From: a virus
DNA: 42,140 nt
Strand: one strand, 5' to 3'
Virus record (IMG/VR): IMGVR_UViG_3300015202_000021
Span: 1 to 42,140 of that record
Part shown: positions 11,560 through 29,057 of the stretch, piece after piece
Position numbering within the stretch: position 1 is the first letter of the stretch
Layout: the number at the start of each line of letters is the position of its first letter
Made by a program: the position numbers and the translations under genes
The notes under the pieces: model-generated
The model's input: the letters and a program-made list of their open reading frames with translations, nothing else
Told to the model about the DNA's origin: nothing
Databases searched by the model: none

Positions 11560-12498
11560 ATGAGTGGTGCGCCTGCTGCCGAAATCGACGTTTGTAATCA
11601 GACTTGCGATTATTTGCGGCAGGCGCCTATCTCTTCGATTTCGCCTCCATCGAATCAAATCGAATCAGCTTTCGCCCGGCAATTACCAATTGCTAGGCGT
11701 TCTGTTTTAAGGAAATACGTCTGGAATTTCGCCAAGACCGAAGCTAATATTTCTTTGGTTGGCACAACTACTGTATCCGGCTCAACAAATCCTGCGGCCA
11801 TAACAGGTATAACCCAAGCTCTTGTAGGCGTAGTAACCGCTGTTGGTCACGGTTTCACTACAGGTATGCAAATATCAATTACTGGCGTTGTCGGGATGAC
11901 CCAGTTAAACAACACACTTTTCACAGTGACGGTAATTGATACCAACACATTCTCTTTGATATACAACGGCGCCACAGTGAACACTGTTGGGTACGGCGCT
12001 TATGTATCTGGTGGAGTAGCAACGCCATCACAAATAGTACCTCTTATAACGCAGCCCTCAGATTTCAGCGATTTCTATGCCCTGCCCAGTGATTTTGTCA
12101 GGTTCCTGTCATGCGGCGGGTCTTCTGAATACTATGCAAATCAAACCGGCACTTATGATATTCGCGGCAAGCAAATCTTAGTCAACAATAGTGCTGCTCC
12201 ATCTATGAATCTTCGCTACATCAGAGACGTTCAAGATATATCGCAATGGGATGATTTAGCCCGGCAGGTCTTGTCTCTTACTTTGGCAGTTGCACTCGCT
12301 TACCAGTTGACAGGCGACCCCGCAGTAACAAAAGCAATGAACGCGCTTCTCATGGCTGAAATACCGGATGCGGTATCAATTGACGGCCAGGAAGCGCCAC
12401 CGCTTAAAATCCTCAACAGCAGCATCCTGACTGCTCGCAGACAAGGCGTTTTCGGTACTCCCGGCTATATAACCGGCTTCCCTCCTTATGGTCCCTAA
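11560..12498 (+). CDS. Tail tubular protein A (gatekeeper) with inserted beta domain
   Basis: Residues 1-65 (CNQTCDYLRQAPISSI, then ARRSVLRKYVWNFAKTEA) match the T7 gp11-type tail tubular protein A, which closes the portal and joins head to tail. The C-terminal part (WDDLARQVLSLTLAVALAYQLTG) also fits. Between them, about residues 70-155, lies a beta-sandwich-like segment (GHGFTTGMQISITGVVGMTQ) that T7 gp11 lacks and that resembles the E1-FCCH-like domains annotated in other phage tail proteins. A very similar segment occurs in the next gene. Normal T7 length is near 200, so the insertion explains the 312 residues. Confidence 0.88.
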   Translation: MSGAPAAEIDVCNQTCDYLRQAPISSISPPSNQIESAFARQLPIARRSVLRKYVWNFAKTEANISLVGTTTVSGSTNPAAITGITQALVGVVTAVGHGFTTGMQISITGVVGMTQLNNTLFTVTVIDTNTFSLIYNGATVNTVGYGAYVSGGVATPSQIVPLITQPSDFSDFYALPSDFVRFLSCGGSSEYYANQTGTYDIRGKQILVNNSAAPSMNLRYIRDVQDISQWDDLARQVLSLTLAVALAYQLTGDPAVTKAMNALLMAEIPDAVSIDGQEAPPLKILNSSILTARRQGVFGTPGYITGFPPYGP

Positions 12499-15147
12499 AT
12501 GGTTCAAAACAAGCTACTCGTAAACGTCTCTGGTGGGGAAGTAGACCCGCTTACGTTCTCGCGAGTAGATATCGCTCTTAACGCCAAGTCAGTGCGTAAG
12601 TGCGAAAACTTTGTAGTCATGCCTCAAGGCGGCTTTCGGTTTAGAAACGGCACCATGTTTTGCCGGACAACTAGAACTAACAGCCCGGCTTACATTTATT
12701 CGTTTCAGTTCAATGATGTTCAGGCGTATGTCATTGAAGCAACCGCAGGTTGGTTCCGCTTCTATACAAACAACGGGCCTGTTTTAAATGCTAATGCGCT
12801 TACAATAACCGGTACTGCCTACAGCGGCTCCGCAGTCACGTTAACAGCAACTGCTCACGGTATGGTGGCGGGCGCAGAAGTTTTCCTAACTGGCTTTGTT
12901 GGCGGTGGATGGGACGCTTTAAACGGATCATACCAAGCAGTAACGATAATTGATGCCAACAACTTTTCAATCAGCGCCGGTGGTTTGACGCCACCAACTA
13001 CTACCGGAACCATAACTCCTATTTACGAGATAGTAGCTCCGTATCTGGTTCAAGATTTACCATATTTGCAATTCGCTCAAATCGCAGATACTGCCTACAT
13101 TACCAACAACAACTATGAACCAAGGAAGCTGCAACGATTAGGCAATTCATCATGGACGCTGGCAACTTATATCCGTACTACAGACCCGTTTCCATCAGGG
13201 TCAATAACTGTTTCAAACATAACACAAGCTAACCCCGCAGTAGTTCTCACTTCTGCGGCTAACGGTTTTGCATCAGGAGAAACAGTAACGCTTCAAGGCG
13301 TTGTTGGGATGACGCAAGTAAATAACACACAGTACCGCATAACAGTTATTGATACGACGCACTTTAGCTTGCAAGATTTAAGCGGTAATAATATCAATTC
13401 CACAGGCTATACGGCTTATGCTTCTGGTGGCACTGCTAATCCTTCGCGCTGGCCGAGAGCTTGCGCGTTCACAGATTCCGGCAGATTACTTTTGGCGGCC
13501 ACTCCTTTAGCGCCTATGAGCGCATGGGCATCGGCAGCGCCTACAACTGGAACGCCTAGATATGACGTTTTCACCGGTGGCACACTAGCCACTGATGCTT
13601 ATGTATTCACGCTTGCCCCCGTGCATGGCTTGCTCGATTCTATACAATGGATAACGTCTACATCTCAGTTTATGGTGATTGGTACTTATGGCTCAATCAG
13701 AACACTTTACGGCAGTAGCTCAGACCAACCAGCAACGCCAAGCGCAATCACCGCCAAGTCAGTCAACACTTTTGGCACTGTCAACTCACAACCCATTTCT
13801 AACGGTACTAACTTGTTCTACCTCCAAAGAGGTGGACTACTCCTTAGAAGCATTGAGTACAACTATCTCTCAGCGGGTTACACAAGCACTGATAGAAACT
13901 TTGTTGCAAGCCACCTCACTCCAAACGGATTCAAGCAATGTATCGAGCAACAAGGACAGCCTGACTTAATTTGGGTCAACCGTTACGACGGCAGGTTCTT
14001 ATCTCTCACGTTCAAGGACGCAGAAAATATTTCCGGTTGGGCGCGGCATTACCTTGGTGGTTCAAGCGTCAATACCAAAAATATAACTGTTCCTTTTGGT
14101 AAGGTCATCTCAATGGCCCGGCTATTGCGGAACCAGACAAACAGCTTATTTGCATCAGGTGACCAGATGTGGTTCCACGTAGAGCGCGTCATAAACGGCT
14201 CTACGGTTCGTTCTATCGAGTATCTGACCGATGCACCTGTCTATCCGATTCGCCCTGATTACACAAGTGTAGTGCCACTAACAGGCGACCCTGGCCCAAC
14301 TAAAGCTGCTGATGATTTGCGCTGGCAAAATGCCATGTTTGAATCCATGAAGACGATGAATCACTTGGATATGAGCAGTGTTTATGATGGCAGTCTCGCA
14401 GGTCTTACAGCGGGGGCTACGCTTACTTTATCTGCAACTTCCGGAGTCGGTATCACAATAACGTCATCAGTTGCCATATTTACGGCTGCGATGGTAGGCC
14501 GCCAAATCTGGAAGCAATTTGACATCAATGGTAACGGCGGCGGCAGAGCGTCTATAACTGCATACGTTAGCCCTACGCAAGTCACAGTAACGGTTCTAAC
14601 AGGTTCATCATTCGATAATACGAACGTAATTCCTGCGGGTAACTGGTATCTCACTGCCACCACTTTAAGCGGCCTTTCTTTGTGGAATGGTGAGACTTTA
14701 TCAGTCGTTGCTGATGGCGGCTATCTAGGAACGTTTGTAGTTGCAAATGGCGCCATAACTTTAACCGACCCTGCAAGCTACGTTGTAGTGGGTTATCCGT
14801 ATAAAGGAACGCTCCACACTTTGAATTTAGATGTACCTGTCCAAAACGGCTCAGGCGAAGCGAAAGCCCGGTCACTGCAAAGAGCTTCTATCACTTTCGT
14901 AAATACTCTTGGTATTGAGTTTGGTACTAACATTTATACCGGCATGGACAGAATGGTTTTCAGAAGTACAGCCGATTCTACTGGCAGGCCAACACCTTTG
15001 CACAACGGAATTAAGACTCAAAACTATATTGATAAATGGTCTGGGCCACTGGCATCAGAAGATAAATCCGTCTACATCGTTCAACCGTATCCACTTCCAG
15101 CGACAATCACCGGAATTGATATGTTCATTTTGGTGAATGATGTATAG
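12499..15147 (+). CDS. Tail tubular protein B (nozzle)
   Basis: The start (SGGEVDPLTFSRVDIA, then CENFVVMPQGGFRFRNGT) is the signature of T7 gp12-type tail nozzle proteins. At 882 residues it is near the usual 800. Two inserted E1-FCCH-like beta repeats can be seen: one around residues 98-165 (TATAHGMVAGAEVFLTGFVG) and one around 235-310 (SAANGFASGETVTLQGVVGM). The second closely matches the insertion in tail tubular protein A even at DNA level. Stop and next start overlap by 11 bases. Confidence 0.9.
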   Translation: MVQNKLLVNVSGGEVDPLTFSRVDIALNAKSVRKCENFVVMPQGGFRFRNGTMFCRTTRTNSPAYIYSFQFNDVQAYVIEATAGWFRFYTNNGPVLNANALTITGTAYSGSAVTLTATAHGMVAGAEVFLTGFVGGGWDALNGSYQAVTIIDANNFSISAGGLTPPTTTGTITPIYEIVAPYLVQDLPYLQFAQIADTAYITNNNYEPRKLQRLGNSSWTLATYIRTTDPFPSGSITVSNITQANPAVVLTSAANGFASGETVTLQGVVGMTQVNNTQYRITVIDTTHFSLQDLSGNNINSTGYTAYASGGTANPSRWPRACAFTDSGRLLLAATPLAPMSAWASAAPTTGTPRYDVFTGGTLATDAYVFTLAPVHGLLDSIQWITSTSQFMVIGTYGSIRTLYGSSSDQPATPSAITAKSVNTFGTVNSQPISNGTNLFYLQRGGLLLRSIEYNYLSAGYTSTDRNFVASHLTPNGFKQCIEQQGQPDLIWVNRYDGRFLSLTFKDAENISGWARHYLGGSSVNTKNITVPFGKVISMARLLRNQTNSLFASGDQMWFHVERVINGSTVRSIEYLTDAPVYPIRPDYTSVVPLTGDPGPTKAADDLRWQNAMFESMKTMNHLDMSSVYDGSLAGLTAGATLTLSATSGVGITITSSVAIFTAAMVGRQIWKQFDINGNGGGRASITAYVSPTQVTVTVLTGSSFDNTNVIPAGNWYLTATTLSGLSLWNGETLSVVADGGYLGTFVVANGAITLTDPASYVVVGYPYKGTLHTLNLDVPVQNGSGEAKARSLQRASITFVNTLGIEFGTNIYTGMDRMVFRSTADSTGRPTPLHNGIKTQNYIDKWSGPLASEDKSVYIVQPYPLPATITGIDMFILVNDV

Positions 15148-15574
15148 CGCGTTAGAAGGCGTCGCTTTTGAGCCGCAGCACGCTTACGACATAGAGCTTA
15201 GAGAATACGAAAATGGATATATCAATCGTGATTGGATTGTGAATGTAGCTAATCAAGGGTCAGTTGCTACCTGCTTTATGGGGGATACGGTTATACTTAT
15301 TCTCGGCTATATAGAAGAGTGGCCGGGTGTTATCAGAGTTTTTGTTATACCGAGTGTTTATGTTCCCCAATTTGCCAAATCAGTTGTTCGCTTCGTCAAA
15401 AACTCCCTTGCTCGTTTGGCTTCTGATTTCGGTTATCACCGCATGTTTACTGAATCGTTAGCAAATGAGCAGACGGATAAATGGATGAGAGTTTTAGGTT
15501 TTGAATGTGAGGGCACCTTGAAAAAATATTCTGCCAATAAAGAAGACTACAAAATGTGGGCGAGGGTTTCCTAA
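15137..15574 (+). CDS. GNAT-fold internal protein (T7 gp13-like)
   Basis: The end LGFECEGTLKKYSANKEDYK is the closing motif of the GNAT-like phage proteins (DUF2833 type) that correspond to T7 gp13, encoded at this place after tail tubular protein B. The VIRVFVIPSVYVPQFAKSVV stretch occupies the position of the acetyl-CoA-binding region, but the usual Q/RxxGxG/A loop is not evident. A structural rather than enzymatic role is likely. Confidence 0.75.
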   Translation: MMYSALEGVAFEPQHAYDIELREYENGYINRDWIVNVANQGSVATCFMGDTVILILGYIEEWPGVIRVFVIPSVYVPQFAKSVVRFVKNSLARLASDFGYHRMFTESLANEQTDKWMRVLGFECEGTLKKYSANKEDYKMWARVS

Positions 15575-16212
15575 TGGGAAGTTTGTTCGGCGGGGGCCAC
15601 TCATCAACACCGGCTGCCCCACTAAATCCTATGCAGCAAACAGAGCCGATTGGTAACCCTTGGGGTCCGGCTGCGAGTATGGCTTTGCAGTCATACGGCA
15701 ATCAAGCCGGGGCGCTGCAAGGCCAAGCTCTCATCGCGCAGAAAGAAGGCACAAACGAAGCCTTACAACAAGCTGATTCAGTGCAGCATTTCAGAGAAGA
15801 CCAAGCAGCATCAGTAGGAAACAGCGGCGTGCTACTTCAAGGTAGCCCGCTTTTGCAATTAGAATATACCCGCCAAAAAGGGCAACAAGAAGTTGATGCA
15901 ATCCTTGCGCGTTCTCAAGCTCAATCGAATCTGTTGACGCAGCAAGCAACGCAAGTAATGAACGAAGGCCGCGCGTCACTGCTTGGCACTCAGGATAATT
16001 TCGTGGCGAATAATGCGTCAAACAATATCCAATTCGCTCAAGGTCAGGCTCAAACAACAGCGCATCAATTGCAGGCTCAGGCGCAGGCTGCATCCGATAA
16101 TCACAACGCTGTAGCAGATGGAATTTTAAACAGCGCAGTTCAAGGAGCGCAGTACGTATTTAATAGCTCAGGCGGTTTTACTGGAATATCCAAAAATTTA
16201 TTCGGGCCATAA
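15574..16212 (+). CDS. Internal virion protein, T7 gp14-like, 212 aa
   Basis: A Gln/Ala-rich, helical protein starting MGSLFGGGHSS. Size, composition and position fit internal virion protein B (T7 gp14), part of the complex ejected ahead of DNA to span the cell envelope. The frame opens six codons earlier with GTG, but the ATG at 15574 overlaps the previous stop (TAATG) and has AGGG eight bases upstream. The segment NEGRASLLGTQ recalls the end of the 114-aa protein at 5561..5905. Confidence 0.75.
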   Translation: MGSLFGGGHSSTPAAPLNPMQQTEPIGNPWGPAASMALQSYGNQAGALQGQALIAQKEGTNEALQQADSVQHFREDQAASVGNSGVLLQGSPLLQLEYTRQKGQQEVDAILARSQAQSNLLTQQATQVMNEGRASLLGTQDNFVANNASNNIQFAQGQAQTTAHQLQAQAQAASDNHNAVADGILNSAVQGAQYVFNSSGGFTGISKNLFGP

Positions 16213-18369: not shown

Positions 18370-21300
18370 ATGCCAGAAGAAAGCACAGTTACGCCGGAAG
18401 AAAGACAAGCGTTTAACATGGTTGACGCTGAGACTACTACAAACACGCCTGCGATTAACCCACAGCAGGCGGCGTCCGAGGGCACAGAACAAAAGAAAAA
18501 GTTTGAAATCCTATCGGCGGTAGTATCTAAGCAATCATGGGATAGAGCCAAGAATATTACTAAGCTAATGGCTGATAGCTACAACACGCAAGAAAGTGAT
18601 ATTCACAGCATCCAAGGTTGGAACCGAGCTTTGCGCGGCGAGATAACAAATGAAGATGCAAAACGTTTGTACAATCCAGATGCACTACAACAACGCAGAA
18701 CGTTATCTTTAGAAGAGTTCGACCAAGAGCCAAACGACGTTCTACATGCAAGCATGTGGGGCGCTCGGCATTTATATGGGGCCCTTCCATATTTGGGCCA
18801 GATGATGAAAGACTCTGCGGTTTTAGGTGGCGTAGGCTTAGCAGGCGGCGCGGCAACTGGGGCCGTCTTTGGCGGCACTGTAGGAGAAGTTGGTCTTGTA
18901 ACCGGCCCCGGTGCGGCAGTCACAATTCCAGCAGGCGCAGCAGGCGGCGCTGTGATGGGCGGCTTAGGGGGCGGCGCTCAAGGCGTTAGGCTTGGCATGA
19001 TGAAAACCGGCGCAGAAGTCGCTGCGGGCGGCATGTACAGAGACTTGATAAACCAAGGCGCAGACCCAGACTTAGCAAGAAAATCAGCGCTTGCTGCGGG
19101 GCTAGTCGGCGGCGCTGCTCAAGCCATATTCCTCGGTAAAGGCGCAACGCAGTTGATACCAATCAACCAACCGATAAAAGCGCAAATAACTAAAAGCCTT
19201 GTTCAACACGCAAGCCATGCGGCTTTAACTGTTGGTAAATCCGTAGCAATTATGGATATTCAAAAGGCCGCAGAATATGCCATAACGCATTTCTCAGCTA
19301 AATACGATGAGCACATAACCCCGCCTGATTTTGCCACCATGCTAAAAGGCTTCGCGCAAGTAACCGCTCAAGGAGCGCTGCTTGGCGGAACCGCAGAGGT
19401 AGTCGGCCACCTAATAAACAGCATCCACGTTAGTGAAAAAGGTAAAGAGCAAGGACCAGTAGAAACCGCTGTTAGAGACATTCTTGGTATTGAACCTGCA
19501 AAGAACGTATCCAAAGTAAACCAAATAAAACTTCAAGGCGAGATTGTAAAATCGGAAGCTAAAGTAGCAGCCGCGCAAAAGAAACTTGACGAAGCAAAAG
19601 AGCAAGACGCAGCAAGAAAAGTAAAACCTGATACAGAAGCTCCTGGGCCTTCTAAGCGCACTGAAAAAGCGGAGCTTGCAGTAGATAACGCTAAGGCCGC
19701 AGTACAGGTCTTAAAAGACGAACACGCCATCACTCAAGCGAAGTACAACATAAGTCAGGCGCTTGCGAAGCTCGGCGCAGCTAAAGTTGCAAATAAAGAT
19801 GTAGATGTTGCAGAAGCAGAACTTGAATTAGAAATAGAAAAACTTCATGCGCTCAGGCCAACCAGCGCCACAAAATTAATTGGTGGCATAACCAAAAAAG
19901 AGGCGGCGCAAGCAGAAGCTAAGACTTCCCTGCGCGGCCAGATAAAGCAAGCTTATGACGATGCGCTGCAAGCCCGTTTGGATTTAAACGAATACAAGCG
20001 CTCTATAGGCGTAACCCCGTTTAACGAGAACAAAGCGACTCCCGAAGAGAAGCTTTGGATTTCGACTTTAGAGAACGAAGCAAAATCTCTCAAAGAAAAA
20101 GAAACGCAGCTTCGCAAACAATACGAAGCCGAGGAAGTTAAGAAGCGCGAAGAATCGCTAACCAAGCTGCTTTCTTTGGTAGAGAAAACTGATACCAAAA
20201 AAGTAGGCGGCATAGCGTGCTCTCAAGTTTCAGCGGAAGCAGCGCCTATAATCGGGGCCTACAAATGGGCTATCGAGAACCCCGAAGAGGCTATTAAATT
20301 AGCAGAAGCACCTGATGTAGACCCCGCGCCTCAAGACGGGCGAATCTTATACCACGGCACATCTATAAAAAACGCAGAAGCTATAAATAAATCAGGCAAG
20401 CTAAACCCGAATAAAGGAAAGCGCCATTTCGCTTACAGTATTTTTGGAAAAGATACGGTCTACTTAACAGCCGATACTAACACTTGGTTAAATCATGACT
20501 GGGCTGACAGTTCAAGAGCAATGCGCTATGAAACAGCAATACAAGTCAAATTAGCAAATGATGCAAAACTTTTCCAAATTCATGCAGAAAAAGATTGGGA
20601 AAAATTGGCTGCTGAAATCGGGTATGACCAATCGATGCTTGATGCCCAACGCAAAGCTAGGCAGATGGACGAAAGGTTCGATACTCCTGGTAAGCTTCTG
20701 CAACTAGATTTAATTGTCGATTTCGATGTGCCAGAAGGTTTTGAAAAATCAGGGAGAGCAATCAAAGCAATAAAAGCCGCTGGATACGATGGCCTATATG
20801 TTACCGAAGAGGAACATGGAGCGCCTCAATTCGCCATTTTCAATACCAAAAAGTTATCGCTTAATCCTGATGAAAGCATCGCGGCTTCCGAAGTTAAACA
20901 ATTCATCGCCCGGCAAACAGCCGGGTATTTAAACATGGATTCCGAACAACTGAACGCGCTGCACAGCGAAATCAAAAAAGTATTCTTAGAAGGTAAAGCC
21001 GAGAAGGCTGCGAAGGTTCAAGAGTTCAAAGCTAATATCAAAGCAAAGGTTATAACTGCTCGTAAACTGGCTTTGAATGGTAAGACTAGAAGAGAAGTAA
21101 AGCTATCTCAAACCGGCAACATAGTAATTAAAAACTCCAAGCGGTCAGCGATGTACGGCGACTTATCGGCTCTGACTTATAACGGCCTGACAGACCTTGT
21201 AGACTTCTCCGGCGAGTTCACAAAGCTAGTCGATATAAACAAAGAGGAAGACGCAGAGATTGATGGCCGCCACTTAGCTTACGAAAGTTATTTAGAAGCG

Positions 21301-23229
21301 GTAACGAAAGGTGATACCAAGGTTCTCAGCGACCACGAGCGAATCCGCAATGACAGCCGCAAAATAGATTGGGGCGACCACACACAAATAACGCGAACAA
21401 AAGACCCGCTAACAGGCGAGATTACTTTTGAAAAAGAGATTGTTCCTTTGGTCGAATCTAAAGACACGATGCTAAAACTAGCGCTGCGTTTCAGAGATGA
21501 TACGCTGCGCCCTCGCATTGAGAATGGAAACAAGTTAACATACATCGACAGCCCAGATTTAGAAGGCAGCATATCGACTCAGGAAGTCGTAGAACGGGCG
21601 ATAACGAACGGATGGAATGGTGAGACTATACCAAGCGCCGGAAAGATTTTAGAAGGCGCAGCCGAGTTCTACAAAGAGTATGGTGAGAACCGAGTTCAGC
21701 CGCACTACACTAAAAAGTATGGCGTTCCAATTAAGCTGATTGAGAACTACAGCGGGAACGCGCCCGCGACCAGAGAAGACGTGGAAAATCCTACGCTCTT
21801 ACAACCCACTAGAAAAGCAATAACGCCAAGCTCATATCATGAGAGAGTCGAAAACTCTCTACCAATTCAAATGGAAACTTTGACAGGTGGGATTCAAAGG
21901 CACATAGCCGCAAACGAGCATGAGATTGCTTTTGGTGAAAGAGCGGCAGAACTAATTGCCATATTCTCTGATAAAGAGTTCAGGGATATTCTTGCAGAAA
22001 GAAAGCCTGAATTGCCCGCTGCATTGGATGTATCTTACAGCTACATACTCGGCATAAAAGCGCGGCAGCGCCACGTATCATTCCAAGACATATCAGCTTA
22101 CCGCCGCAATCTCGGCACTTTTTTAGTAGCCGGTAAGGCTGTGCAATTCTTAAAGCAATGGACAGCATTTGCATACTACGCTCACGAAATGCCGATACCT
22201 GATTTGGTATCAGGCATTAACGATTATTTCTTCCATCAAAAATTAGCCGATGAGGTGCTTAGCAACTCTCCGTTCTACAGAAACCGTAAAGAAGATTTGT
22301 TTGCTCAAGCAATAAATGAGACTCCAAGTGAGTTCGCAGATAACGCTGTAGCCGATTCCAAGGCAGCGCAAGCGCTTATGTATCCTGTTCAAAAAGGAGA
22401 CATAAGCGTAATTAGAGCGGCAGGTTGGGCTGTGTTCAAGTATATGTACAACAACACCAAAGGAACGCACCAAGAGAAATTTGATAAAGCGCTATCAGAA
22501 TTTGCGAGAATATCAAAACAAACTCAATCATCATCAGCGCCAAGCCAGCAGACCATTCAAGAAATCGAAAGCCCTCTTGGTAAAATGTTTGGTCTATTCA
22601 AAAAGCAAGGAATCCAAATCTCTCAAGCTCATAGAAAGGCTATTAGAGAGTGGATTGCGGATAAGAAAAACCCCGCCAAACAATACAAAGCCGCTCGCGC
22701 TGTGTTGATAAACATTGTGGCAGCGGTGCTATTTGAGACTGTAGCAACAGCGGCGGCGGTAACTGGTGACGCCGCTATTAAATCCATTTTTGGTAAAAAA
22801 CAAGAAAAATTTGACGCCAAGAAATCTGCGCTTGATATCGCCAATAAAGCAATATCATCGCCGTTCTCTTCTAACCCTTTGTATGGGGCCATGATTCAAG
22901 CCATCATCACTAATGAGGCGATACATCTTGAAGAACTTGCCGGTTTAAAAGGCGCTAGTAAGCCCTTTGACCCTAACTTTATTCCAATTGAAGCCCAGAA
23001 GAATGGCATATCATTAGCTGAAGACATGCACAAAATGGTGGCGGATTTAGTTCTGAAAAACGATTTGCCCACAGTGCCAGAAGTAACGCAGACAATGTTC
23101 CATGCAGGTAAATCAGTGCTGCCTGCGGTAACGAAACTACCTATTCCTGTTGTAACTTCCACCGCTCGCAAGCTAGTCGGGCCGCCAAAGAAACCGAAAA
23201 AACCAGCACTATTTACACTGAGCGAATAA
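18370..23229 (+). CDS. Giant internal virion protein (T7 gp16 position) with ADP-ribosyltransferase-like domain
   Basis: At 1619 residues this is the largest gene, at the place of T7 gp16, which enters the cell first and completes the DNA channel. Visible parts: residues 145-220, a Gly/Ala-rich hydrophobic stretch that could insert in membrane; 390-610, long Lys/Glu/Ala coiled coils; 656-835, a segment with RILYHGTS (H662), VYLTAD (Y698) and a closing GYDGLYV...GAPQFAIFN (Q820), the arrangement of ADP-ribosyltransferase folds in phage polyvalent proteins; then a region (HYTKKYGVPIKLIENYS) like the conserved C-terminal domains of polyvalent ejection proteins. I see no lytic transglycosylase motif, unlike T7 gp16. 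Catalysis is not proven. Confidence 0.85.
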   Translation: MPEESTVTPEERQAFNMVDAETTTNTPAINPQQAASEGTEQKKKFEILSAVVSKQSWDRAKNITKLMADSYNTQESDIHSIQGWNRALRGEITNEDAKRLYNPDALQQRRTLSLEEFDQEPNDVLHASMWGARHLYGALPYLGQMMKDSAVLGGVGLAGGAATGAVFGGTVGEVGLVTGPGAAVTIPAGAAGGAVMGGLGGGAQGVRLGMMKTGAEVAAGGMYRDLINQGADPDLARKSALAAGLVGGAAQAIFLGKGATQLIPINQPIKAQITKSLVQHASHAALTVGKSVAIMDIQKAAEYAITHFSAKYDEHITPPDFATMLKGFAQVTAQGALLGGTAEVVGHLINSIHVSEKGKEQGPVETAVRDILGIEPAKNVSKVNQIKLQGEIVKSEAKVAAAQKKLDEAKEQDAARKVKPDTEAPGPSKRTEKAELAVDNAKAAVQVLKDEHAITQAKYNISQALAKLGAAKVANKDVDVAEAELELEIEKLHALRPTSATKLIGGITKKEAAQAEAKTSLRGQIKQAYDDALQARLDLNEYKRSIGVTPFNENKATPEEKLWISTLENEAKSLKEKETQLRKQYEAEEVKKREESLTKLLSLVEKTDTKKVGGIACSQVSAEAAPIIGAYKWAIENPEEAIKLAEAPDVDPAPQDGRILYHGTSIKNAEAINKSGKLNPNKGKRHFAYSIFGKDTVYLTADTNTWLNHDWADSSRAMRYETAIQVKLANDAKLFQIHAEKDWEKLAAEIGYDQSMLDAQRKARQMDERFDTPGKLLQLDLIVDFDVPEGFEKSGRAIKAIKAAGYDGLYVTEEEHGAPQFAIFNTKKLSLNPDESIAASEVKQFIARQTAGYLNMDSEQLNALHSEIKKVFLEGKAEKAAKVQEFKANIKAKVITARKLALNGKTRREVKLSQTGNIVIKNSKRSAMYGDLSALTYNGLTDLVDFSGEFTKLVDINKEEDAEIDGRHLAYESYLEAVTKGDTKVLSDHERIRNDSRKIDWGDHTQITRTKDPLTGEITFEKEIVPLVESKDTMLKLALRFRDDTLRPRIENGNKLTYIDSPDLEGSISTQEVVERAITNGWNGETIPSAGKILEGAAEFYKEYGENRVQPHYTKKYGVPIKLIENYSGNAPATREDVENPTLLQPTRKAITPSSYHERVENSLPIQMETLTGGIQRHIAANEHEIAFGERAAELIAIFSDKEFRDILAERKPELPAALDVSYSYILGIKARQRHVSFQDISAYRRNLGTFLVAGKAVQFLKQWTAFAYYAHEMPIPDLVSGINDYFFHQKLADEVLSNSPFYRNRKEDLFAQAINETPSEFADNAVADSKAAQALMYPVQKGDISVIRAAGWAVFKYMYNNTKGTHQEKFDKALSEFARISKQTQSSSAPSQQTIQEIESPLGKMFGLFKKQGIQISQAHRKAIREWIADKKNPAKQYKAARAVLINIVAAVLFETVATAAAVTGDAAIKSIFGKKQEKFDAKKSALDIANKAISSPFSSNPLYGAMIQAIITNEAIHLEELAGLKGASKPFDPNFIPIEAQKNGISLAEDMHKMVADLVLKNDLPTVPEVTQTMFHAGKSVLPAVTKLPIPVVTSTARKLVGPPKKPKKPALFTLSE

Positions 23230-23241
23230 GAGGAATAAGAG

Positions 23242-24825
23242 ATGACTGTAGGAACAACAAACCTGACAAACACATTCACAGGAGACGGAGCGTCATTCGG
23301 CCCGTTTGCTTTTACGTTTGCAGCGCAAGCGACGAAAGATGTCTATGTCTCTCTTGGTGGCATCGTTCAATCATCCGGATATGTTGTTACCCTTAACTTA
23401 AATGCAGACGGTACAACGGGCGTAGGCGGGTCTGTGATGTTTACAACTACGCCTCCTGCTTTGAGTGCTGCCGGCGTAATTGGTCGGTCATGCGATTTAC
23501 TTCAAGCGATGACTCTGCCAGTTGAAGGCAACTTATCAGAATCTAAATTGATAAATGCGTTCGATAGATTGACCATGATTGCTCAGCAGATAACCGCATC
23601 AGTTATAGCTTGCGTTCAATTACCAACACAATTCCAAGGCATCATCAGTGGTATCTTAACGCCGCCATTCCCGGCTTTATATGTTGCTCGTATGAACGCA
23701 GCCGGTAATGCAATTGAATTTGTTTCTCCTGCTGCCGCTCTTGCTCAAGCCGCTCCGATTCCCGGTGGCGGTACAGTCGTTGGCCCGGCAAATGGAACGA
23801 CAACGAATTGGGGATTAGCATTTTTCGCGGATTCAACAGGCCAACTGATAAAAGGCACCGTGCCAACGGGAGCCGCGGGAACGGTGCCAATCAGCACCGG
23901 TCCCACAACTGCTCCTATATGGGGAACAGGTTTACCCGCAAATTTACGCTCTCTTTCAATCGTTGGCGCGGGTAGACAATTTCCAACATCCGGCGCTGTA
24001 TCTGGAACATATTGGCACAGTGGAAACTGGACAAGCACAGGAGCAATTACCGCTGCACCGGGAACACGAGTCTATGTCTCTGGCTTAGTAACTTTGGCCC
24101 ATGCTCTTACTGTTTCGACAGACTCAGCGGGCGGCCAGTCAATGGTTACAAACGCGACTCCTGCCCAATTAACTCCACCATCTCAAGGCCAGGGCGCAGG
24201 CGGCGGCGGAACAGCTTTACCGGGTACTGCATCAGTAGTTGTTGGCGGTGGCGGTGGTGGCAACGGTGGCGCCGGAGGTAACGGCGGCTCTTTAACTGCA
24301 AGCACAATAGCTCTAGGCGGATACGCATCCCCTTATCAAGATTCGTTCTCAGGCAGTGGCGGCGGGTCTAGCTATACTTCTGTTGCGAGTTCAACAGGCA
24401 GCGCAGGTGGCGCAGGTGGTGGCGGCTTCTATATAGAATGTCTCCTTGCTTTCACTATTACAACAGGCTCTATAACAGCTAACGGCGCGGTTGGCGGCAC
24501 TCCCGTTACTGCTAACCAAGGCGGTGGCGGTGGGGGCAGCGGCGGTACTGTAGGCATACGTTGCAACAACGTATTAACTCTGCCAATTAACTCAATCACT
24601 TGCAACGGCGGCGCAGGCGGCCCCGGTGGTGCAGGTGGTGGCGGCGGTGGTGGTGGCGGTGGTGGTATCATCGACCTTGCCGCAGCTACCCTTGCAGTAA
24701 ACGGTTCTGCACTTTCAGTTGCAGGCGGGGCTGCTGGAACTGGCGCCGCAGCGCAACCTGCTTCCGCAGGCAGCGCAGGTACGACAAACCAAGTTACAAC
24801 TAATTACCCAGTATCAATATTCTAA
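23242..24825 (+). CDS. Tail fibre / host adhesin with polyglycine regions
   Basis: The first 120 residues (FGPFAFTFAAQATKDVYVSL, then VMFTTTPPA and LINAFDRLTMIAQQ) match the T7 gp17 N-terminal tail-fibre domain that anchors the fibre to the tail. The rest is dominated by glycine: residues near 315-355 and 455-475 contain runs of up to eleven Gly, broken by motifs such as NGGAGGNGG. Gly-rich adhesin tips of this kind can pack as polyglycine-II helices with specificity loops between them. There is no intramolecular chaperone. GAGGAATAAGAG precedes the start. Confidence 0.85.
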   Translation: MTVGTTNLTNTFTGDGASFGPFAFTFAAQATKDVYVSLGGIVQSSGYVVTLNLNADGTTGVGGSVMFTTTPPALSAAGVIGRSCDLLQAMTLPVEGNLSESKLINAFDRLTMIAQQITASVIACVQLPTQFQGIISGILTPPFPALYVARMNAAGNAIEFVSPAAALAQAAPIPGGGTVVGPANGTTTNWGLAFFADSTGQLIKGTVPTGAAGTVPISTGPTTAPIWGTGLPANLRSLSIVGAGRQFPTSGAVSGTYWHSGNWTSTGAITAAPGTRVYVSGLVTLAHALTVSTDSAGGQSMVTNATPAQLTPPSQGQGAGGGGTALPGTASVVVGGGGGGNGGAGGNGGSLTASTIALGGYASPYQDSFSGSGGGSSYTSVASSTGSAGGAGGGGFYIECLLAFTITTGSITANGAVGGTPVTANQGGGGGGSGGTVGIRCNNVLTLPINSITCNGGAGGPGGAGGGGGGGGGGGIIDLAAATLAVNGSALSVAGGAAGTGAAAQPASAGSAGTTNQVTTNYPVSIF

Positions 24826-27160: not shown

Positions 27161-27409
27161 CTATCTAATAAACGGGTAGAGAGTTTGAGAAACACAAGCT
27201 GCGGCTTGCAATACCGGCAAGCTAACTTGGCAGCTTCTCCTAAACCCCCGCCCAATCTTGTGTAATTTTGGATGCTTTACGGCGAAACTCAGCTTCCGCA
27301 ATGGTGGTACGGGCAAGTTGCTTGTAGGCTCTTGCTCGGCAGCCATGGCACTCGGTATAAGAATCAGCGCGGCGGAAATAGTTGCAATTCGTACAAAGTC
27401 TAACTTCAT
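27161..27409 (-). CDS. Possible exported protein overlapping a zinc-ribbon gene, 82 aa
   Basis: The first 24 residues (MKLDFVRIATISAALILI, then PSAMAAEQEP) look like a signal peptide with an Ala-x-Ala cleavage site. The ATG overlaps the preceding stop (ATGA) and has GGAG at good spacing. Most of it lies on top of the 64-aa frame at 27240..27434. One of the two may be a shadow, or both may be used. The mature part is basic and unrecognised. Confidence 0.4.
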   Translation of the reverse strand: MKLDFVRIATISAALILIPSAMAAEQEPTSNLPVPPLRKLSFAVKHPKLHKIGRGFRRSCQVSLPVLQAAACVSQTLYPFIR

Positions 27410-27434
27410 TTTTCATCTCCGGTGGGTCTATCAT
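27240..27434 (-). CDS. Zinc-ribbon-like small protein, 64 aa
   Basis: Two CxxC pairs (LCTNC and ECHGC) are separated by 11 residues, the spacing of a small zinc ribbon. A helical basic tail follows (ARTTIAEAEFRRKASKI). Start choice is uncertain: the ATG at 27434 has GGAG ten bases upstream and overlaps the end of the previous gene. Small zinc-ribbon proteins are common in this block. It competes with the 82-aa frame for the same bases. Confidence 0.5.
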   Translation of the reverse strand: MIDPPEMKNEVRLCTNCNYFRRADSYTECHGCRARAYKQLARTTIAEAEFRRKASKITQDWAGV

Positions 27435-28533
27435 CTATACCAGTCTCCGTGAATTGATACTCTAGCAGGAACAATAGGCAGCATATTGCATGGGCGAGGT
27501 GATGCAGCCCTGATTCAGAATCGTGAGTCTCGCCAAGCCAGAAGGCCCACACATGACGATGTAAGGCAGCAAAACACCGGCCATAAGATAGACCTGACCG
27601 CCAATTATTCTCCCCCGTTTTAAATATTGAATTGATAGGTAAGCAGATACCGGAGCGCTTTTTTAACTCCTTCTGCATTATCCCCAAACATTCCCAAGCC
27701 GTTGTTGCACCTACTGCAAAGGATTCCTCGCACCACCCCGGTGATATGGTCGTGGTCGAGATGACGAATGCGCTTTGTGAGTTCCCGGCAACAAATTGCG
27801 CATTTGTTATCTTGGTCTGCAAGTAGTTGCTCAAAAGATTCGCTAGTAAGTCCACGTTTTCTAAGCCTGGCTTTCCACTTCGTTTCAGCGTCTCGTTTTC
27901 TAAGTTCAGGGCAGTTGTACCGTCGTTCAAAATGCCCTTTAGTTTTTTCAGGGTTTCGCTCTCGCCATTTTTTGGCGTTAGCTCTTTGCTGCGCGAGGTA
28001 CTCTGAATCATCTCCATAAGTGGCCCGCTCATAGCAGTAACGGCATTGTTTGTTTTTGTAAGTGATTGTATTGCTACAGCATTCTGGTTTAACTGATTTA
28101 CTATCCATCCCGGAACATCCTCAAAATCTATACTTAATCCTGAATATTTATTCGCTCCATAGGAAAGAACTCGCGCCACTTCTTGCAATGCTAAACCGGG
28201 TAGCAAGTCATACCGGGCTTTGCCATCATCGAATTTTTTGGCATCTTCAACAACGCCCTTGCGAACGAAACCGGGAGGCGGATTTTTCGGGTTCCATAAC
28301 TCATCGCCTTTAGCAACGTACTTGCTCGGATCAATCGGGCCTACAGTGTTGATTTCCATTTTTACTTTCGTTTTTGCAATATCAATTTGAACCTGGCTTA
28401 AAGCCATACAAGTTTCACAAGTATTATGGTATGGCAATCTCTCTTCTGTGCATCCGATAGTAGCGCATTGAAATTTAGAACCGAGCACTTTCGCCCGGTC
28501 TGCGTCTTCGTGAATCGCTTTTGGTCTGCTCAC
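27406..28533 (-). CDS. DUF5664-type dATP/dGTP pyrophosphohydrolase interrupted by an insertion
   Basis: The two halves of the domain are clear. KFDDGKARYDLLPGLALQEV and VLSYGANKYS come before the insertion; NNWRSGL, ALHRHVWAFWLGE and SESGLHHLAHAICCLLFLLE come after it. In intact relatives YGA-KY is followed at once by NWR. Here about 175 codons (27616..28140) intervene and contain an endonuclease gene in another frame, yet no stop occurs in this frame. The first 60 residues hold a CxxC pair. The GTG start at 28533 overlaps the resolvase stop and has GGAGG upstream. Relatives degrade dATP/dGTP, and some serve Z-genome synthesis, but no PurZ is present. Activity with the insertion is doubtful. 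Confidence 0.75.
   Translation of the reverse strand: MSRPKAIHEDADRAKVLGSKFQCATIGCTEERLPYHNTCETCMALSQVQIDIAKTKVKMEINTVGPIDPSKYVAKGDELWNPKNPPPGFVRKGVVEDAKKFDDGKARYDLLPGLALQEVARVLSYGANKYSGLSIDFEDVPGWIVNQLNQNAVAIQSLTKTNNAVTAMSGPLMEMIQSTSRSKELTPKNGESETLKKLKGILNDGTTALNLENETLKRSGKPGLENVDLLANLLSNYLQTKITNAQFVAGNSQSAFVISTTTISPGWCEESFAVGATTAWECLGIMQKELKKRSGICLPINSIFKTGENNWRSGLSYGRCFAALHRHVWAFWLGETHDSESGLHHLAHAICCLLFLLEYQFTETGIDDRPTGDEK
27616..28140 (-). mobile_element. Homing-endonuclease insertion in the DUF5664 gene, about 525 bp
   Basis: The boundaries are inferred from the expected uninterrupted motif GANKYS-G-ENNWR. The inserted length is divisible by three, and 489 of its 525 bases are the endonuclease gene. 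That leaves only about 36 bases, too few for a group I intron core. It is neither intein-like nor an obvious intron: it looks like a bare homing-endonuclease gene that landed in the active-site region of a nucleotide-metabolism gene. Confidence 0.65.
27620..28108 (-). CDS. Endonuclease VII-type HNH homing endonuclease, 162 aa
   Basis: Zinc-finger HNH core: CAIC (C103, C106), then HLDHDHITGVVRGILCSRCN with D118, H119, D120, H121 and the second pair C131/C134, followed by NNGLGMFGDN. This is the recombination endonuclease VII pattern seen in many free-standing homing enzymes. The N-terminus has an additional Cys cluster (C22/C25) and a long basic helix (KKWRERNPEKTKG) likely to read DNA. GAGG lies ten bases before the ATG. 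It lies wholly within the host gene in another frame on the same strand. Confidence 0.9.
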   Translation of the reverse strand: MDSKSVKPECCSNTITYKNKQCRYCYERATYGDDSEYLAQQRANAKKWRERNPEKTKGHFERRYNCPELRKRDAETKWKARLRKRGLTSESFEQLLADQDNKCAICCRELTKRIRHLDHDHITGVVRGILCSRCNNGLGMFGDNAEGVKKALRYLLTYQFNI

Positions 28534-29057
28534 AATCCTACCTCCATATTCCAAAAATACCTCGCTATCAGCCATGCGTCTGCTTCCTCTTGAGTGATTT
28601 TGTAATTCGGCCACAACTCACGGGCTTTTGCTACGTGAGCATTTTTCCTAGCGGCAGTTGTCGGATACTTCCATCCTAAACCGAAATGCCTTTGCCAATC
28701 CTGCGGGTCTACTTTCTCAACATCCTTACGCCTAAAGCCAATCCGGTGAAACATATAATATGCATGGCCGGTGTTTACACCAAAAGAGAATATAGACTGA
28801 GCCGAGTTACCTTTCCGTGAGTGTACATCCTCAATTCCGGCTACAATTTTATAAGCAGATTTTGTTTTCAATTTTACAAATTCAACAGCAATTTCATATT
28901 CAAATTTTTTCGGGGTAAATCGAAAAGTCTTAATCCAATCTTTGGTCATGATACAAACAGCGCCGGTTCCTCCAGGGTCGCAACCTATCACCATAAGTGG
29001 AAAAGGTTTTGTTCCCGGGCCTCCGGTGCTGTTTGTAGGGCGGTTAACCAGGGGCAC
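28530..29057 (-). CDS. RuvC-like Holliday-junction resolvase
   Basis: The RNase H-like fold shows GCDPGGTGAV (D27), AGIEDVHS (E76) and QEEADAWLIARY (E157 and D160), in the order of RuvC catalytic residues. Such enzymes cut branched DNA during phage recombination and before packaging. The predicted GTG start at 29057 lies inside the end of the previous gene. A shorter start at the Met of MVIGCDPGG lacks a binding site. It is followed directly by the DUF5664-type gene. Confidence 0.85.
   Translation of the reverse strand: MPLVNRPTNSTGGPGTKPFPLMVIGCDPGGTGAVCIMTKDWIKTFRFTPKKFEYEIAVEFVKLKTKSAYKIVAGIEDVHSRKGNSAQSIFSFGVNTGHAYYMFHRIGFRRKDVEKVDPQDWQRHFGLGWKYPTTAARKNAHVAKARELWPNYKITQEEADAWLIARYFWNMEVGL

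Follow-up and report, generated by a model that had tools for sequence, protein, structure and literature searches.

The metagenomic virus record IMGVR_UViG_3300015202_000021, whose entire stretch of 42,140 bases we refer to as the window, encodes a giant protein of 1619 residues (18370..23229, + strand, from the ORF list) as the last large gene before a tail-fibre-like gene. An earlier note on this DNA proposed that the protein contains an ADP-ribosyltransferase (ART) domain and enters the host ahead of the phage genome. The question raised by this locus is whether the domain is a genuine ART and, if so, what such an enzyme might do in a protein encoded at this position.

The proposed motifs are present in the 1619-residue frame, and their residue numbers are correct. 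The ART-like domain comprises residues 657–834 (20338..20871), an assignment supported by the profile match, the hhalign comparison, and the identity to a relative described below, and it contains five sequence blocks, all on the + strand. Block 1, YHGTSIKNAEAINKSG (residues 661–676; 20350..20397), begins with Y661-H662-G-T-S and includes the predicted catalytic, NAD-binding His662 (20353–20355). Block 2, VYLTAD (V697 to D702; 20458..20475), includes the predicted catalytic Tyr698 (20461–20463), and block 3, RAMRY (residues 716–720; 20515..20529), is the counterpart of an A..Y helix motif. Toward the C-terminal end of the domain lie block 4, GYDG (G805-Y806-D807-G808; 20782..20793, with D807 at 20788–20790), and block 5, APQFAIF (A818-P819-Q820-F821 and on to residue 824; 20821..20841), in which Q820 (20827–20829) occupies the position of the catalytic glutamate. 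Across an alignment of 23 ARTs, YHGT is near-invariant and its H and G are invariant. His662 aligns with the invariant histidine of the 22 other sequences, which in the H-Y clade belongs to the HG[TS] motif of the first core strand, and Tyr698 falls in the near-invariant column of the second-strand tyrosine. Block 2 aligns with GVYFA, GFYFT, and IYLT of other phage ARTs, GYDG or GxDG occurs in most of the aligned phage sequences, and the third-position residue of block 5 is E, Q, N, H, or S in the others. The HGTSxxxNxxxIxxxG spacing of block 1 is known from PARPs.

Polyvalent proteins are marked by at least two effector domains within a single injected polypeptide; in the remainder of the giant protein, no other effector domain was recognized in Pfam and phrog searches. 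Its C-terminal part, at residues of about 1130–1337 (21760–22380), weakly matches phrog_9880 (E = 4e-5), a family of 2231-residue phage proteins with no assigned function, and residues 1441–1470 (22690..22779, + strand) form a hydrophobic, membrane-segment-like stretch with a Kyte-Doolittle 19-residue mean of up to 2.03. The ART stretch has a G+C content of 42%, compared with 49% in the N-terminal part of the gene, a weak hint that it has a separate origin.

To retrieve candidate ARTs, we searched viral contigs for DNA matching a pattern that encodes YHGTxxxNxxxIxxxG; most in-frame matches resemble ARTs and are followed by a block of the Y[LF][TA] type. Twenty-one phage sequences were aligned with the window domain and its one close relative to give the 23-member alignment. 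Taken singly, 11 of the 21 match ART-PolyVal (best E = 4e-23) and 10 match PARP. We then realigned the 21 phage ARTs with the window domain and its relative excluded, and this leave-out profile matched the giant ORF alone among the 226 ORFs of the window (43 bits, E = 4.9e-13, residues 659–830), with the blocks in order across 172 residues; the next-best ORF reached E = 0.99. Comparison of the window domain with the 21-ART profile by hhalign gave a probability of 97.6 and E = 3e-12. Because the retrieval was motif-led, with most profile members found by a pattern copied from block 1 of the window and some retained for a GYDG-type end, these E-values are optimistic. The isolated domain scored 50.0 bits, compared with a maximum of 9.4 bits over 300 shuffles. 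Keeping block 1 and shuffling the remainder gave a maximum of 27.1 bits, so the later blocks also contribute to the score.

Other searches varied in what they recovered. The C-terminal pattern led to two ART-PolyVal-type domains, and a profile built up from these picked out the GYDG block of the window (E = 7.5e-5). The joint 23-member profile, which contains the window domain itself, had PARP12, diphtheria toxin, tRNA 2'-phosphotransferase, exotoxin A, and PARP10 among its best matches to solved structures. By comparison, a profile of the window domain and its relative alone found no ART in the PDB, and a two-sequence alignment with the ART of Roseovarius Plymouth podovirus 1 (RPP1) yielded poor search patterns. 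Library matches obtained without motif selection are weaker, yet their convergence on ART families weakly suggests the same assignment. The best Pfam match of the domain is PARP (PF00644; E = 0.012, blocks 1–3, 15.6 bits against a curated cut-off of 26.7), followed by KptA (PF01885; E = 0.038, below cut-off); the NCBIfam KptA model gave E = 0.0073 and phrog_23333, annotated as polymerase, E = 0.0056. The PARP, KptA, and phrog_23333 matches are all confined to the N-terminal half of the domain. DUF6185 in Pfam and phrog_13493, both families without an assigned function, also gave short, weak matches.

Single-protein queries with the domain or the giant protein found no relatives in viral contigs, phages, plasmids, or genomes; at E-values of up to 10, a single nonsignificant phage match appeared (E = 2). 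The one close relative is the 2341-residue giant protein of IMGVR_UViG_3300049489_000089 (L197/L216, hereafter L216; contig of 29,295 bases), which is 47% identical to the window protein over 94 residues (E = 8e-22) within the ART domain and unrelated to it elsewhere. The earlier note had named loss of His662 or Tyr698 in close relatives as evidence against its proposal; both residues are kept in L216, as is the glutamine. The L216 counterparts of blocks 2, 3, and 4 are SYFT, RAAEY, and GIDA, and its third-position block reads GQFIVFN where the window has PQFAIFN. L216 is a different type of phage from the window, with virion genes of phrog_3287 and phrog_4287. Directly upstream of its giant gene is a DNA ejection protein gene (phrog_4287, E = 4e-11), and genes for a virion structural protein and an acetyltransferase-like protein are also nearby. 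A PAS-domain protein (L216:15008-15697; PF00989, E = 7e-12) follows directly after the giant gene. Because the ART is the only domain common to the giant proteins of two different phages, we regard it as a movable module of ejection-region giant proteins. Viral contigs, genomes, phages, and plasmids contained no further close relatives, and this ART branch is rare.

The predicted structure speaks neither for nor against the fold. AlphaFold with the 23-sequence alignment produced a weak model (pLDDT 56.5, pTM 0.51) whose order of strands and helices could, at this low reliability, fit an ART core, and the single-sequence run (pLDDT 32) gave no usable model. Foldseek searches with the weak domain model returned nothing at E ≤ 0.001. 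First in the PDB list was MbcT, an ART-like NAD+ phosphorylase, at a nonsignificant E = 0.64, and the viral library gave a phage "PolyVal ADP-ribosyltransferase" at E = 0.028 (probability 0.93, TM 0.35). Taken together, the leave-out profile, the shuffles, the converging library matches, and the close relative support the ART assignment well, and on homology alone the domain is almost certainly a true, if divergent, member of the H-Y clade.

The third catalytic position sets the domain apart. In ARTs, the usual role of the glutamate is to orient the ribose of NAD+ and to activate the acceptor. H-Y clade enzymes have an acidic residue, E or D, in this role; the window has Q820 at the glutamate position, and D807 of GYDG is acidic. 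The H-Y-(E/Q) layout of the earlier note, which allowed for glutamine, describes both the window and L216. With glutamine in place of glutamate, the domain is not an orthodox H-Y-E enzyme, and it may carry out mono-transfer, hydrolyze NAD+, or be a pseudoenzyme. Polyvalent ARTs are described as H-Y-D enzymes with the aspartate in strand 5 (PMC5512222), and D807 might correspond to that residue.

Genes in this part of the window follow the order tail tubular protein B, a gene at an acetyltransferase position, an internal-virion-protein-B-like gene, a 716-residue gene, the giant gene, and a tail-fibre-like gene; the order is similar in Pelagibacter phage HTVC035P, MW202485, and Pseudomonas phage YA3. 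The tail tubular protein B-like gene (12499..15147, + strand) matches the phrog_376 tail protein family at E = 1e-105 and the tail-fibre-like gene (23242..24825, + strand) the phrog_13893 tail protein family at E = 9e-7. The internal-virion-protein-B-like gene (15556..16212, + strand) lies at the position of HTVC035P gp50 and weakly matches the phrog_418 internal virion protein family (E = 0.007). The giant gene itself stands where T7 gp16 does, with no other large internal-virion gene between it and the tail fibre. Its product has no detectable sequence similarity to the proteins of HTVC035P, MW202485, or YA3 and was not matched by profiles of gp16-position proteins. A fusion of an ART protein with gp16 was considered as the origin of the giant protein and set aside, as no sequence similarity supports it. 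Judging from gene position, the giant protein is probably ejected into the host; it would enter before the DNA and modify host targets. Elsewhere in the window, a 312-residue gene between the capsid and tail genes (11560–12498) matches E1_FCCH of ubiquitin-activating enzyme at E = 2e-11, which is unusual in a phage tail-region gene, and 27406–28614 (− strand) encodes a protein that matches a dATP/dGTP diphosphohydrolase N-terminal domain in two stretches (PF18909, E = 1e-29).

ARTs recur in this genomic region among podoviruses. Among 28 phage records related through the tail gene, six (L074, L039, L027, L028, L030, and L050) contain an ART-PolyVal domain with E-values of 1e-7 to 5e-9, and the domains that we read have the H-Y-N motifs FHGS, GLYF[TA]D, and NYVIFD. 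In the two records in which we read the gene order, the carrier genes (L074:13276-15576 and L039:14854-17319) encode virion-cassette proteins of 766–821 residues, and the gp16-position gene comes next; in L074, that gene has a match to a family of internal virion proteins. A profile of these ARTs did not match the window, and they therefore form a different branch from that of the window domain. ORFs of 2648 and 3862 residues in two further contigs (L190 and L167) each hold several YHGT-type ART-like motifs in a single polypeptide.

The reading that we favor, and judge somewhat more probable than its negation, is that an H-Y clade ART within an ejection-cassette giant protein is delivered from the virion and ADP-ribosylates a host macromolecule at entry. 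The giant protein, with an ART domain from the PARP/KptA/phage polyvalent side of the superfamily, would be packed in the virion and ejected through the tail into the host as infection begins. There, the domain would draw on cytoplasmic NAD+ to modify a host macromolecule with ADP-ribose, to the benefit of the phage at a stage when none of its own genes is yet expressed. Use of NAD+, transfer activity, and a host target are all inferred here. Weighing against this reading are glutamine in place of E or D at the third catalytic position, the failure of the Pfam ART-PolyVal model to match, the weak AlphaFold model with no Foldseek match at E ≤ 0.001, the single close relative, placement of the carrier at gp16 through gene order, and a choice of profile members guided largely by motifs of the window domain. 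The window encodes a family A DNA polymerase, a primase-polymerase/VapE protein, and an SNF2-type helicase, and no phage-type RNA polymerase was recognized among its large ORFs; on this ground, host RNA polymerase is a plausible target, which is only a guess.

The rivals to this reading differ in how much of it they deny. An ART fold without transferase activity, which would bind NAD+ or ADP-ribose, hydrolyze NAD+, or have a purely structural role within the ejection protein, has an appreciable if minor chance of being correct: the glutamate position is Q in both the window and its sole close relative, and N in the related-phage ARTs that we read. Against it, none of these domains has lost H or Y, and conservation of the glutamine between two otherwise unrelated carrier proteins suggests use. 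Several mono-ADP-ribosylating PARPs also lack the glutamate. Moreover, D807 could be the aspartate of the H-Y-D layout described for polyvalent ARTs (PMC5512222). An active enzyme that is not delivered, and whose role lies in virion assembly, in modifying phage proteins, or in the producing cell toward the end of infection, would agree with the lack of detectable homology between the giant protein and known ejected proteins; we hold it to be decidedly unlikely, with the giant gene lying between internal-virion-like genes and a tail-fibre-like gene and its L216 relative adjoining a DNA ejection protein gene.

Two further alternatives concern the identity of the domain. The weak KptA matches in Pfam and NCBIfam would suit a KptA/Tpt1-like RNA 2'-phosphotransferase engaged in RNA repair, but the matches extend over only about 40 residues around YHGT (98–136 of 177 in Pfam), leaving the N-terminal lobe unmatched, and the C-terminal GYDG...QFAIF end resembles phage ARTs, unlike KptA; we regard this identity as highly improbable. 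Chance resemblance could be argued from motifs that are each short and from single-library E-values that all exceed 0.005. Such a resemblance is made very improbable by the ordered succession of blocks and by how far shuffling lowers the score, a control that largely refutes it; with the 47% identical relative it is hardly tenable. Returning to a delivered, active ART, a bolder form would make the window and L216 domains a separate H-Y-Q (or H-Y-D) branch, a plug-in module that passes among the ejection proteins of podoviruses not related to one another. In phages with no recognized RNA polymerase of their own, it would modify the transcription apparatus of the host upon entry. We consider that version unlikely.

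Injected enzymes precede all phage gene expression and give a phage its first opportunity to seize control of the host or weaken host defences. ARTs in podoviruses are rare, at about 3% (PMC9503650), and the standard family model misses the window domain; entry-time effectors in small podoviruses are thus probably undercounted. The domain common to the two ejection-region proteins provides a concrete pair in which to ask whether glutamine supports transfer.

The T7 gp16-type internal virion proteins of relatives (phrog_684, phrog_342, and phrog_6651) share the cassette position of the giant gene but no detectable sequence similarity with its product, in which Pfam finds no lysozyme or transglycosylase domain. 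The parallel with T4 Alt drawn in the earlier note stands in its logic, Alt being an ART delivered from the virion (PMC9503650), and fails in its clade, Alt belonging to the R-S-E group (PMC5512222) and the window domain to the H-Y group. An Alt/VIP2 identity was accordingly rejected, as the window carries HGTS and YLT and not the arginine and serine. From the PARP catalytic domain (PF00644), the window domain differs in the absence of E at the third position. Membership of the domain in ART-PolyVal was not upheld by the Pfam model PF18760 (cut-off 31.2 bits), which matches the RPP1 vRNAP (CBX87992.1) at 2e-8 and has no match in the window even at E ≤ 10. This RPP1 protein, an ART-PolyVal/Tox-ART-HYD2 member, has H, Y, and GYDG in the same order as the window domain, and its ART likewise lies inside a giant virion-associated podovirus protein (PMC5512222); the window domain differs in the PARP-type spacing of block 1 and in Q at the E position. 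Virion-packaged phage ARTs, one of them in podovirus RPP1, have been published (PMC9503650, PMC5512222), and ARTs in phage virion-associated giant proteins are already known; what is new here is a divergent and slightly unusual member.
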